Assembly: GCA_938006875.1 (NCBI GenBank)
Contig: CALLMJ010000001.1
Location: 1 to 52,340 of the forward strand
From: an uncultured Bacteroidia bacterium
GTDB taxonomy: Bacteria > Bacteroidota > Bacteroidia > J057 > CALLMJ01
Direction: 5' to 3'
DNA: 52,340 bases
The notes under the pieces were generated by a model. It had not been told where the DNA came from. It searched no databases and worked only from the letters and a program-made list of their open reading frames with translations. How positions within the stretch are numbered: the first letter of the stretch is position 1; every line of letters begins with the position of its first letter. Below are positions 23,199 through 28,195 of this stretch, piece by piece. The translations under genes and the position numbers were made by a program.

Positions 23199-23373
23199 TA
23201 TTAGAGATTTTGAACAGAATTTTCGTTTAAGCTATAACTAATTGTTTTTAAATTAATTATGTAAGAAATATCAACATTTTGAAACCTATTTACAAAGGTT
23301 TATAGTTTGATTTATCTAAATGTTGAAAATTTATTTTCTGATGTTTAGTCAGGATTATTTTAAGGATTGGTCC
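23199..23373 (+). repeat. Repeat family 2 leader segment, copy 1
   Basis: About 95% identical by eye to 28248-28419; contains hairpin CAACATTT...AAATGTTG. Confidence 0.85.
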
Positions 23374-23806
23374 TTGAGTAGGCGCAGCCGTACCTGTGGG
23401 CATTGAGTAGGCGTAGCCATACCGATGGGCATTGAGTAGGCGTAGCCGTACCTGTGGGCATTGAGTAGGCGTAGCCGTACCGAAATGACCATTTTTCGTG
23501 GAGAATTGGTTGTTTCGGTATGTTCGCTTCACTCACTACTCAACAACCGCATAAATATAAGGGCTTGTCATTGAGTAGGCGGCCGTACCGAAGGTCATTG
23601 AGTAGGCGTAGCCGTACCGAAATGACCATTTTTCGTGGAAAAGCGGTTGTTTCGGTATGTTCACTTCGCTCACTACTCAACAACCGCATAAATATAAGGA
23701 CTTGTCATTGAGTAGGCGGCCGTACCGAAATGACCATTTTTCGTGGAAAAGCGGTTGTTTCGGTATGTTCGCTTCACTCACTATTTAACAACTGCATATG
23801 AGATGA
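23374..23806 (+). repeat. Repeat family 2 array, copy 1: 29-bp tandem units then three palindromic units of about 110 bp
   Basis: TTGAGTAG starts at 23374, 23403, 23432, 23461 (period 29), then 23571, 23598, 23708; TTGAGTAG...TACCGAAA...TTTCGGTA...CTACTCAA arms. Confidence 0.92.
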
Positions 23807-23816
23807 CAATTATAAT

Positions 23817-24478
23817 TTATTCCTTGTGACTTTCTTTGATTTCCGTAAAATTTATTGGTAGTAAATCAAAGGTTTCAAAAAGTGTTTTTAAATTCGGGTT
23901 TTCTTGAAAAAATTTATGAATTTTTTGTTCTGTTTGGTTAGGCGTATTTAAAAAAGCTTGAGCTTTAGAAGGGTCTATTTCAATATTTAATTGAACGGTA
24001 GGATTGTCCAATAAATTTCTTACATGATTTAAAATTTCATCTTTTGAGTTTTCTAAACTTTGTTTTTCAAAATCATTAAAAACTACTTGTTTCCAAATAT
24101 TTTCTTGTACGGAATAATCTTGCCTATCTAAAATGGTACGAATACTTTGTTTAGATTCAATAAATTTTAATAAATTTTGATATACAGAGTCAAAAATATC
24201 TTTTTTAATAGGAACAGGTTTATAGTCAATGATATTTTCTTCCACTTTATTTTCTTTTATAAGCTCAACTTTTTTATCTATATCTTCTAGGCTTTTTATA
24301 GAAGAAAGGGAAGAAAATGAAGGTAAAGGATTTTTAAATGAATGATTAGCATTTAGATTGTCAATTTTTTCCTGTTGATTTTTATTATCTTCAATAGAAT
24401 TTCCAATTTTTTGATTATTTTTTGAGGCATCTTCTTGGGACTGAGGATTGGATTTAATGATAGGCTGTATTACACTAC
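23817..24478 (-). CDS. dnaX: DnaX tau-specific C-terminal region in the -1 frame relative to the upstream dnaX ORF
   Basis: -1 frame after the A10 run is open: SSVIQPIIKSNPQSQEDASKNN...KENKVEENIIDYKP...ENPNLKTLFETFDLLPINF; 78 codons join exactly to the listed ORF 23817..24245. Confidence 0.8.
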
Positions 24479-25618
24479 TTTTTTTTTTAGTTGTAGTTCA
24501 TCATTGTCCATGATTAACTCTATGGCATTCCACAAATTGGATAACTTAATCAACAAAAGTTCTACTAATAAATTGGGAGATTGAGAACTACGAATTTTTT
24601 GTTCAACTTCAGTAACTAACTGAAATGCATTAATTAAATAACTTTCAGAAAATGTTTGAGATTGTTGGATATAATTTTTTTTGTGTAAATCTGTAACTTC
24701 CATGAGTTTCATAGTTTCAGGATTTTTAGAAACGATTAAATTTCTTACATGCTCTAATAAACCAGAAACAAAAGTTACAGAATCAAAACCTTTTTCTAAA
24801 ATTTGATTAAAAAGTAAAATGGCATTTTTGTAATTTCTTTGATGAACATACAAAAAGACCTCAAAATAAATGTCTTCATCTAAGATGCTCAAATTTTCAT
24901 GAACAATTTTTAAGGTAACATTTTTTTTAGAAAAATTAACAACCTGGTCAAAAATACTGAGAGCATCTCTTAAACCACCATCAGCTTTAATTGCAATCAA
25001 TTGCAAAGCATCTAATTCATATTGAACATTTTCTTTTTCGGCAATAGATTTTAAATGATTGGTGATATAATCTACTTTAATACGCTTAAAATCAAATTTT
25101 TGACAACGTGAAAGTATGGTAGGCAAAATTTTATGTTTTTCAGTGGTAGCCAAAATAAAAAGAGCGTGGGGAGGAGGTTCTTCTAAGGTTTTCAAAAAGG
25201 CATTAAATGCAGCAGTACTCAACATGTGAACCTCATCAATAATATAGACACTTTTTGTACCCATTTGCGGAGCAACTCTCACACTATCAATTAATGAACG
25301 AATATCTTCAACACTATTATTAGAAGCAGCGTCTAACTCAAAAATGTTTAAACTTCTGTTTTCATTAAAGGCTTTGCAACTGTCACATTCGTTACAAGGG
25401 TCTCCTTCGGGTGTAAGATGAAAACAATTAATAGCTTTCGCTAAAATTCTTGCACAGGTAGTTTTACCTACTCCTCTTGGACCACAAAATAAAAAAGCAT
25501 GTGCCAACTGGTGAGTAAGCAAAGCATTTCTCAAAGTATCTGTAACATGCTCTTGTCCAACCACCGTTGAAAAAGTTCCTGGTCTATATTTTCTTGCTGA
25601 GACAACAAAATTTTCCAT
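24470..25618 (-). CDS. dnaX: DNA polymerase III subunit gamma (short product of dnaX)
   Basis: VSARKYRPGTFSTVVGQEHVTDTLRNAL, FCGPRGVGKTTCARILAKAINC, zinc-site Cys, VYIIDEVHMLS, KTLEEPPPHALFILATTE; start moved to MENFVV. Confidence 0.95.
   Translation of the reverse strand: MENFVVSARKYRPGTFSTVVGQEHVTDTLRNALLTHQLAHAFLFCGPRGVGKTTCARILAKAINCFHLTPEGDPCNECDSCKAFNENRSLNIFELDAASNNSVEDIRSLIDSVRVAPQMGTKSVYIIDEVHMLSTAAFNAFLKTLEEPPPHALFILATTEKHKILPTILSRCQKFDFKRIKVDYITNHLKSIAEKENVQYELDALQLIAIKADGGLRDALSIFDQVVNFSKKNVTLKIVHENLSILDEDIYFEVFLYVHQRNYKNAILLFNQILEKGFDSVTFVSGLLEHVRNLIVSKNPETMKLMEVTDLHKKNYIQQSQTFSESYLINAFQLVTEVEQKIRSSQSPNLLVELLLIKLSNLWNAIELIMDNDELQLKKKVV
24479..24488 (-). promoter_or_regulatory. 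A10 slippery run in dnaX (candidate recoding site)
   Basis: Minus strand ctaAAAAAAAAAgtagtgtaa: frame 0 reads L K K K V V stop; ten A in total. Confidence 0.75.
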
Positions 25619-25819: not shown

Positions 25820-28195
25820 ATGCCAATCTATTTTTCTGACCTAGCGAATATATTAAAAATTCCTTACCCTTACAATAACAACCCCCTAATTGAAAAGTTT
25901 TATATTGATACAAGAGAAATTTTTTATTCTCAAAATGCTGTTTTTATTGCGCTAAAAGGTTCAAGAGATGGTAACCAGTTTGTTTTAGACGCATATAACA
26001 AAGGAATACGCTATTTTATCATTACAAAAATTCTGGATAACTTTCCTTCTGATGCTTATTATATTCAGGTTGAAGATAGTTTAAATGCTTTACAAACCCT
26101 TGCACATCATTATAGAAAACAGTTTCAAATTCCTATTATAGGAATTACAGGTAGCAATGGAAAGACTATAGTAAAAGAATGGTTAAATATTTTTTTTAGT
26201 ACTCAATGGAAGATTTGTAAAAGTCCCAAAAGTTATAATTCTCAAATTGGAGTACCTCTGTCTATTTTAGAACTTAATGAAAATCATCAAATGGGAATAT
26301 TTGAAGCGGGTATTTCCAAACCTTATGAAATGGATAACTTGGAATGGATCATTCAACCCACAGAAGGTGTCCTTACTCACATGGGTGATGCTCATCAAGA
26401 GCATTTTAATAGTTACCAACAAAAACTATTAGAAAAGTTTAAACTTTTTAAAAATTGTCATTCCATTTATGCAAACCTCAACGATGAAGTCACTTTAAAT
26501 CTTTTGAGTAAAATATATCCTTTTGCTATTACTATAAGTAAAAACTTAAAAACAACCTATATTTATGAATATCAATATCCTGTCTTGAAGCTAAAAAAAC
26601 AAGAAAAACTTTATGAATTTAATGTAAATTTCTCAGACCCTTCTAACTTGGAAAATCTTGCTTTATGTTTAATGATTGGGTTAGAAAAAAATATATCAAT
26701 TGAAGTTTTACAAAATCAAATTCCTTTACTACCAACTTTGCCCATGCGTCTAGAATTAATAACTGATAATCAAGAATTTACTTTTATCATTGACACATGG
26801 TCATCGGATTTTGATTCGCTTCAACAAGCTCTTTACTTACTCAATCAAACTCAAACCTTTTTACAAAAAAAATTAGTTTTAACAGATTTTGAAAATCTTA
26901 AAATAGATTCAGAACTTTTTCAGTATATCTTAAAAAACTTCTCAAAAAATAATTTATACCTGATTGGTAAAACTTTTTTTCCTTTAAATAATCAATACCA
27001 AGTTTTTGAAAACGTTGAAGAATTTATACAAAATATAGTTTGGGAAGAATTTGTTAATTCAGTAATATTACTCAAAGGTTCAAGAAATTATGAGTTAGAA
27101 AGAGTTTATCATTTTTTTAACTTAAAAGCCAGTACTACCTATTTAAAAATCAATTTACAACAACTCAAAAAAAATTTAGGAATTTATAAAAGTTTACTAA
27201 AACGAAATACCCAAATGATGATCATGTTAAAAGCTGATTCTTATGGAAGTGGTTCTTGGGAAATCGCTAAAAGTTTAGAAAACTCAGTAGATTATATTGG
27301 TGTTGCTTATACTGTTGAAGGTATTCAATTAAGAAAAAAAGGTATTATTACTCCCATCATGGTCATGAATCCTGATTTTAATAGCTTGCATTTATTAGAA
27401 AAATACCAATTAGAACCTGCTGTTGGGTCTTTTGAATTACTAAATAGTTTAGCTCATTATCCTCTTAATATTCATTTAGAAATCGAAACAGGAATGAATC
27501 GATTAGGGTTTTCTTTCCATGAATTGGAATTAGCAATTTCTTACTTCAAAAATCAATCTTTAAAATTGAAATCTGTATTTACTCATCTCGCTTCAACGGA
27601 TAATTCTCTTGATGATGATTTCACTCATGAACAAATCTTAAAGTTTTTTAAGGTACAAAAATATATTGAAAATCATGGATTTAATCCTATTTATCATTGC
27701 CTTAATACTTCTGGTATTGAAAGATTTCCTCAATATCAAATGGATATGGTTAGGTTAGGTATCGGATTGTATGGAATTTCTAATAATTTAAAAGATTTAC
27801 AAGAAATTGGTAAAATGTATAGTAAAATTACAAGAATTCATGAAGTAAAAAAAGGAGAGAGTATTGGTTATAATAAAAGCTTTATTGCATTAAATGATAT
27901 GCTCGTCGCGACTATTCCTGTAGGTTATGCTGATGGTTTGAGAAGAAGTTTAAGTAACGGAAATTGGGCTTTTCTGACTCAAAATACTTTGTGTCCTATT
28001 GTTGGGAAAATTTGTATGGATATGACTATGATTGATATAACCAGCATTCCGAATGCAAAAGTAAATGATGAGGTTTTAATTTTTGGTGAATATCCATTAA
28101 CATTAAAACACATGGCTCAAAAAATCAATACTATTCCCTATGAGTGTTTAGTAAGTATTTCGTCAAGAGTAAAAAGAATATTTGTTGAAGAGTAA
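25820..28195 (+). CDS. murF-alr: Bifunctional UDP-MurNAc-tripeptide:D-Ala-D-Ala ligase / alanine racemase
   Basis: MurF P-loop GITGSNGKTIVKEW; Alr MLKADSYGSGSWEIA, LNTSGIERFPQYQMDMVRLGIGLYG, VPVGYADGLRR-like IPVGYADGLRRSLSNG, GKICMDMTMIDI. Confidence 0.93.
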   Translation: MPIYFSDLANILKIPYPYNNNPLIEKFYIDTREIFYSQNAVFIALKGSRDGNQFVLDAYNKGIRYFIITKILDNFPSDAYYIQVEDSLNALQTLAHHYRKQFQIPIIGITGSNGKTIVKEWLNIFFSTQWKICKSPKSYNSQIGVPLSILELNENHQMGIFEAGISKPYEMDNLEWIIQPTEGVLTHMGDAHQEHFNSYQQKLLEKFKLFKNCHSIYANLNDEVTLNLLSKIYPFAITISKNLKTTYIYEYQYPVLKLKKQEKLYEFNVNFSDPSNLENLALCLMIGLEKNISIEVLQNQIPLLPTLPMRLELITDNQEFTFIIDTWSSDFDSLQQALYLLNQTQTFLQKKLVLTDFENLKIDSELFQYILKNFSKNNLYLIGKTFFPLNNQYQVFENVEEFIQNIVWEEFVNSVILLKGSRNYELERVYHFFNLKASTTYLKINLQQLKKNLGIYKSLLKRNTQMMIMLKADSYGSGSWEIAKSLENSVDYIGVAYTVEGIQLRKKGIITPIMVMNPDFNSLHLLEKYQLEPAVGSFELLNSLAHYPLNIHLEIETGMNRLGFSFHELELAISYFKNQSLKLKSVFTHLASTDNSLDDDFTHEQILKFFKVQKYIENHGFNPIYHCLNTSGIERFPQYQMDMVRLGIGLYGISNNLKDLQEIGKMYSKITRIHEVKKGESIGYNKSFIALNDMLVATIPVGYADGLRRSLSNGNWAFLTQNTLCPIVGKICMDMTMIDITSIPNAKVNDEVLIFGEYPLTLKHMAQKINTIPYECLVSISSRVKRIFVEE

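Follow-up and report, generated by a model that had tools for sequence, protein, structure and literature searches.

A dnaX gene whose reading frame closes directly after the clamp-loader core, while a second open frame continues from the same point, raises the question of whether the gene is broken, wrongly sequenced, or recoded to yield two proteins. Such a gene lies on the minus strand of the 52,340 nucleotides of DNA from an uncultured Bacteroidia bacterium that were analysed here and are called the window. Frame 0 (24470..25618) is open from an ATG at 25618 and encodes the core with its AAA+, lid and domain III regions, giving a gamma-like product of 382 amino acids. Near its end, from 24499 to 24470, the minus strand reads GAA CTA CAA CTA AAA AAA AAA GTA GTG TAA. 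Exactly ten A's, the A10 run at 24479..24488 (T10 on the plus strand), mark the core/linker junction; the run starts within the CTA codon at 24490-24488 and is followed by GTA GTG TAA, and the frame-0 product ends with ELQLKKKVV. The TAA stop of frame 0 (24470..24472) lies 6 nt past the run, and a TAG in the third (+1) frame (24475..24477) lies only 1 nt past it. The -1 frame is entered with AGT at 24479 and remains open for 220 codons, up to a TAA at 23819-23817; this extension (23817..24479) comprises a polar linker and a putative tau C-terminal domain (23817..24266), and 78 of its codons lie upstream of the GTG at 24245 that starts a separate ORF of 142 amino acids. Joining the core to the -1 tail with one added A (A11) gives a tau of 600 amino acids. 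The first-pass annotation, which had described a dnaX split at A10 on this strand with 78 sense codons preceding the GTG, was correct in every detail checked.

Directly 3' of dnaX, positions 23368-23826 hold tandem repeats made of 137-nt units and of 29-nt units of the type TGGGCATTGAGTAGGCGTAGCCGTACCGA, and the divergent neighbour at 25820-28195 is an ORF of 791 amino acids that, judged from its sequence alone, looks like a MurF-Alr fusion.

The identity of the core was established by profile searches. It matches the DnaX model TIGR02397 with an E value of 1.6e-131 (438.8 bits against a cut-off of 250), PF13177, PF22608 and PF12169 all exceed their cut-offs, and DnaX chains in the PDB match it at an E value of about 7e-72. 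The Bacteroidetes model NF011531/PRK14971, of 614 positions, covers both parts of the split gene: core residues 1-365 align to model positions 1-365, and the -1 tail aligns to positions 419-611 (E 1e-4). These matches agree with the earlier view that the short form ends after the clamp-loader core and that the -1 extension adds a polar linker and a C-terminal domain. The last 149 residues, modelled with AlphaFold (mean pLDDT 87.5), are predicted to adopt a KH-like fold. A Foldseek search with this model returned weak matches (best E 0.009), headed by proteins of replication: DnaA domain I, DciA and, from the E. coli replicase entry 5fku, a chain that we take to be tau on the basis of the entry. 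A profile built from the tails matched the gamma/tau chain 4iqj_M weakly (E 0.4). Taken as predictions, these results suggest that the -1 tail carries a tau-type C-terminal domain.

Within the 52-kb window, A10 is the sole A/T run of this length; genome-wide, 63 overlapping matches corresponding to a few dozen runs were found in 2.87 Mb. In a sample of A10-A12 loci elsewhere in the genome, inspected by frame only, several sit within long open frames (L141, L144, L152, L159, L160, L165 and L167 among others). The A10 run alone is thus not proof of slippage, and the case for recoding rests on the flanking stops and the tail, beyond the run itself.

We propose, with a probability of about 0.86, that the window dnaX yields two clamp-loader subunits through programmed transcriptional slippage (transcriptional realignment) at A10. 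RNA polymerase would stutter at the run and produce transcripts of mixed run length. Faithful A10 transcripts would be terminated by the stop 6 nt past the run and A9 transcripts by the stop 1 nt past it, in both cases giving a short gamma-like product of about 380 amino acids, while A11 (or A8) transcripts would be read into the -1 frame and give the 600-aa tau with its linker and C-terminal domain. The label "-1" strictly describes the DNA; under slippage, A11 (or A8) transcripts are read normally. We infer that slippage takes place in this organism, and likewise its rate and the use of both proteins by the replisome. What the proposal builds on was observed: the anatomy of the locus, a stop in each of the two alternative frames, a conserved run and a constrained tail.

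Constraint on the tail was assessed with a genome of the same genus, whose dnaX locus has a core 89% identical to that of the window and shows the same A10, the same position of the frame-0 stop, and a -1 tail. Between the two copies the core has a dN of 0.08 and a dS of 1.54, and the -1 tail a dN of 0.39 and a dS of 1.38 (dN/dS about 0.28); for the last 126 tail codons the values are 0.27 and 1.73 (dN/dS 0.16). With dN well under dS, the tail therefore evolves as a protein, with -1 as its reading frame. The presence of A10 with the same split at the same place in this genome and in dozens more excludes coincidence.

These data bear on two explanations that do away with recoding. The first-pass annotation had regarded a homopolymer error, by which the real run would be A11 and dnaX a single frame, as a real alternative, and the assembly is indeed a draft of 185 contigs; yet A10 with its -1 tail recurs in the independent same-genus genome and in dozens of other genomes, and the stops just past the run are placed in a frame to which an error would be indifferent. 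Even with A11 the gene would stay of the slippage type, with tau then in frame 0, and we consider an error of this kind very improbable. Just as improbable is a broken gene from which gamma would be made alone, the tail being a relic or being translated separately from the GTG at 24245. The 142-aa ORF starting there could serve the latter, and a small relative with a 0.5-Mb genome has a frame of 359 amino acids only. However, the -1 frame is already open at the run, ahead of the GTG, and the same holds for the other genes that an A run splits; purifying selection acts on the tail; and run and tail are retained in many families. The 0.5-Mb genome itself, likely that of a reduced symbiont, carries at G045:C1:340083-341147 a dnaX open frame of about 359 amino acids with a stop inside the match, and perhaps makes gamma only.

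We surveyed dnaX loci from 59 relatives, from 80 contigs with organism names, and from genomes sampled evenly across the class, which contributed 29 split and 60 continuous genes. A run of A9-A12 was found at the same core/linker junction in 151 Bacteroidia dnaX genes and was exactly A10 in 124 of them. The tau frame is 0 in 94 of these genes, -1 in 53 and +1 in 4, the last mostly from draft genomes; these numbers are not prevalences, because split genes were deliberately fetched. In the even class sample we counted 34 genes out of 146 with a split at a run of this kind. Runs are found in each of the three codon phases, and also in genes whose other lysine codons are mostly AAG. Among named A10 relatives, Flammeovirga pacifica and Mongoliibacter ruber have gamma in frame 0, whereas Hymenobacter and Rufibacter have tau there. 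Run and transition are conserved in the same-genus copy and in most of the order to which the window organism belongs. Outside the Bacteroidia, A9/A10 runs of either polarity occur in five families (f84, f86, f91, f92 and f97) and in some members of f85, and no such run was seen in the other families sampled there. Comparison with related dnaX genes for the A run and the -1-frame stop, which had been suggested from the sequence, thus found the run conserved and many relatives split exactly like the window gene. The first-pass annotation had also held that recoding would be refuted by relatives whose dnaX frame is uninterrupted and lacks the run. Uninterrupted relatives do exist, but in most of them A10 is present and frame 0 encodes tau, so that they support slippage; among the 60 continuous genes of the even sample, 50 carry a run of A9-A11 between residues 360 and 385.

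When 136 DnaX cores were placed on a maximum-likelihood tree, polarity was seen to change at least 21 times while the run persists; for the single labels, well supported branches require 8-11 changes. The same tree has about 6 changes in the kind of signal. It scores the A7 of one further gene (L030) as A7, although this run lies at a different residue and phase and does not form a slippery site like that of Pontibacter described below. In a clade of gut Bacteroidales (L086, L095, L102, L104, L107, L109 and L110), dnaX is one continuous frame devoid of an A run, and recoding seems to have been lost there.

Polymerase slippage and ribosomal frameshifting make different demands on the frame that is neither gamma nor tau. 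Slippage should be accompanied by closure of both non-tau frames soon after the run, and for a -1 ribosomal shift the third frame is irrelevant. Both non-tau frames are shut within 30 nt past the run in 142 of the 151 genes. With one gene taken per family and a null of positions drawn from the tail of the same gene, 64-65 of the 72 families have a third-frame stop that lies nearer than the median of the null (p about 1e-12, an approximate value because the families remain related to one another). No downstream structure was detected in genes that combine an A9-A12 run with a frame-0 or -1 tau (mean z about -0.4); the four +1-tau genes have a mean downstream folding z of -2.6 and are too few to weigh. 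At the window dnaX, two folding computations found no downstream stem-loop (z -0.86 and +0.45), in line with what had been judged by eye, and no AGGAG-like element lies within 20 nt upstream of A10. The slippery site of the window is CTA AAA AAA AAA GTA, that is, A10 followed by G, and not A_AAA_AAG with an upstream Shine-Dalgarno (SD) element; in A10-type genes, the share with an SD-like sequence ahead of the run is slightly raised (24-25% against a background of 11-13%). Two further marks of slippage are present: a homopolymer of at least about 9 where the frame changes (10 in the window, 9-12 in 151 relatives) and transitions in both directions among orthologues, with tau in 0, -1 and +1, which is the criterion of Antonov et al. 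(PMC3711429).

The stops in both other frames, the third-frame enrichment and the lack of downstream structure therefore favour transcriptional slippage over programmed -1 ribosomal frameshifting, in which a ribosome on uniform A10 mRNA would step back one base on A_AAA_AAA within the run to make tau. Both processes predict an identical tau on A10, with LKKKSSVIQ spanning the junction, every A10 contains the in-phase A_AAA_AAA heptamer, 147 of the 151 genes have a frame-0 or -1 tau, and the mild excess of upstream SD-like motifs also suits the ribosome. However, the window lacks a stimulatory structure; runs are 9-12 long in nearly all genes with a junction run, though 7 would suffice for the heptamer; third-frame stops are enriched, yet a -1 shift has no need of them; and tau in +1, as in four genes, is out of reach for -1 ribosomal shifting. 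Moreover, the Pontibacter genes, which look ribosomal, combine A7 with an upstream SD-like element and a predicted pseudoknot; they demonstrate that our set of tests can reveal such a signal, and the A10 genes as a group show none. We regard frameshifting as the main source of tau in the window as unlikely, although some ribosomal contribution may exist. The rarity of +1 tau (4 genes against 53 in -1) fits insertion-biased slippage and would also fit such a contribution. Slippage at A10, with frame 0 encoding the short form, thus remains our reading; it had been favoured over ribosomal frameshifting in the first-pass annotation, and it fits the conservation of the run, the purifying selection on the tail, the stops in the other frames and the transitions in both directions.

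In a few lineages the run appears to have given way to other signals. In 21 Pontibacter dnaX genes (L033, L035, L036 and 18 more; for example at about L033:3595-3725), A7 (A_AAA_AAA G) stands where A10 is expected, with an SD-like element upstream and an immediate -1 stop. In Adhaeribacter terrigena, A_AAA_AAG takes the place of A10 around codon 378, and the frame-0 stop follows 5 codons past the heptamer, with a -1 tail of 239 codons; other Adhaeribacter have retained A10 with tau in frame 0. Together these A6/A7 genes have an upstream SD-like element in 77% of cases, against a background of 13%, and strong downstream folding (mean z -2.5). An H-type pseudoknot is predicted in common for the 21 Pontibacter genes, and its second stem, GGCACC/GGTGCC, is invariant. 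Covariation is uninformative here because the pairs are nearly invariant, and the prediction is backed by this invariance within a variable linker and by the fold z-scores. Pontibacter has apparently swapped slippage for a ribosomal frameshift signal. Two dnaX genes from rumen Bacteroidales MAGs (L066 and L084) are split around codons 375-385, with tau in +1 and no A run. Both carry AGGCAATCACGGGAGTG at the transition within otherwise divergent DNA, which is possibly a +1 recoding signal; across 395 Bacteroidia genomes, AGGCAATCACGGGAGTG had six one-mismatch matches, about the chance expectation by our estimate.

Our findings make it fairly likely that the A9-A11 run of Bacteroidota dnaX is an old stutter site that has been widely retained and where the frame of the template makes little difference: RNA polymerase would supply all three frames, and lineages would flip polarity (at least 21 times in our sample), a few of them having replaced the run by a ribosomal signal (Pontibacter and possibly A. 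terrigena) or by an unknown +1 signal (the two rumen Bacteroidales). That the slip site and its flanking stops are kept phylum-wide, whatever the template frame, indicates selection on cells to produce both gamma and tau; the importance of gamma is debated even in E. coli (PMC5009743). The Bacteroidota genes also offer a natural series for comparing transcriptional with ribosomal recoding, with tau in frames 0, -1 and +1, runs from A9 to A12, and slippage replaced by a ribosomal signal. Annotation pipelines may label many of these essential genes as frameshifted.

The window dnaX can be compared with several known systems. In E. coli, as in the window, one dnaX gene gives gamma and tau by a change of frame at lysine codons past domain III; the E. 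coli gene uses a -1 ribosomal shift on the short heptamer A_AAA_AAG with an SD element and a hairpin, and has tau in frame 0, whereas the window lacks these stimulators. A. terrigena has a slippery site like that of E. coli, with polarity reversed. Thermus thermophilus dnaX, which slips on A9 (PMC1088944; also PMC5009743), shares with the window a long A run at the gamma/tau junction, nearby stops in both other frames and independence of a hairpin; there, however, tau is frame 0, while the window encodes gamma in frame 0 and requires one extra A for tau. In Shigella flexneri mxiE, the long product likewise comes from transcripts with one extra homopolymer base, but the run is of U and the gene encodes a transcription activator (PMC1088944).

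The closest precedent is the work of Antonov et al. (2013), who reported nine species with a two-ORF dnaX and exactly 10 As, inferred transcriptional realignment, and took opposite shift directions among orthologues as their criterion (PMC3711429). Their two-ORF genes, which make up a GeneTack cluster, resemble the window in having the core in frame 0, a stop just past the poly-A and a long tau tail in -1. Reversed polarity relative to E. coli, remarked on in the first-pass annotation, is therefore borne out but is not new; two-ORF dnaX with A10 was already known, and the window adds another case. Our literature search, of partial coverage, returned no account of the A run in frame-0 Bacteroidota dnaX or of polarity that flips repeatedly, and none of dnaX in Pontibacter. 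Only split dnaX genes, 17 in all, were seen by Antonov et al. (PMC3711429), whereas in the present survey frame-0 relatives bear the same run and polarity flips repeatedly.
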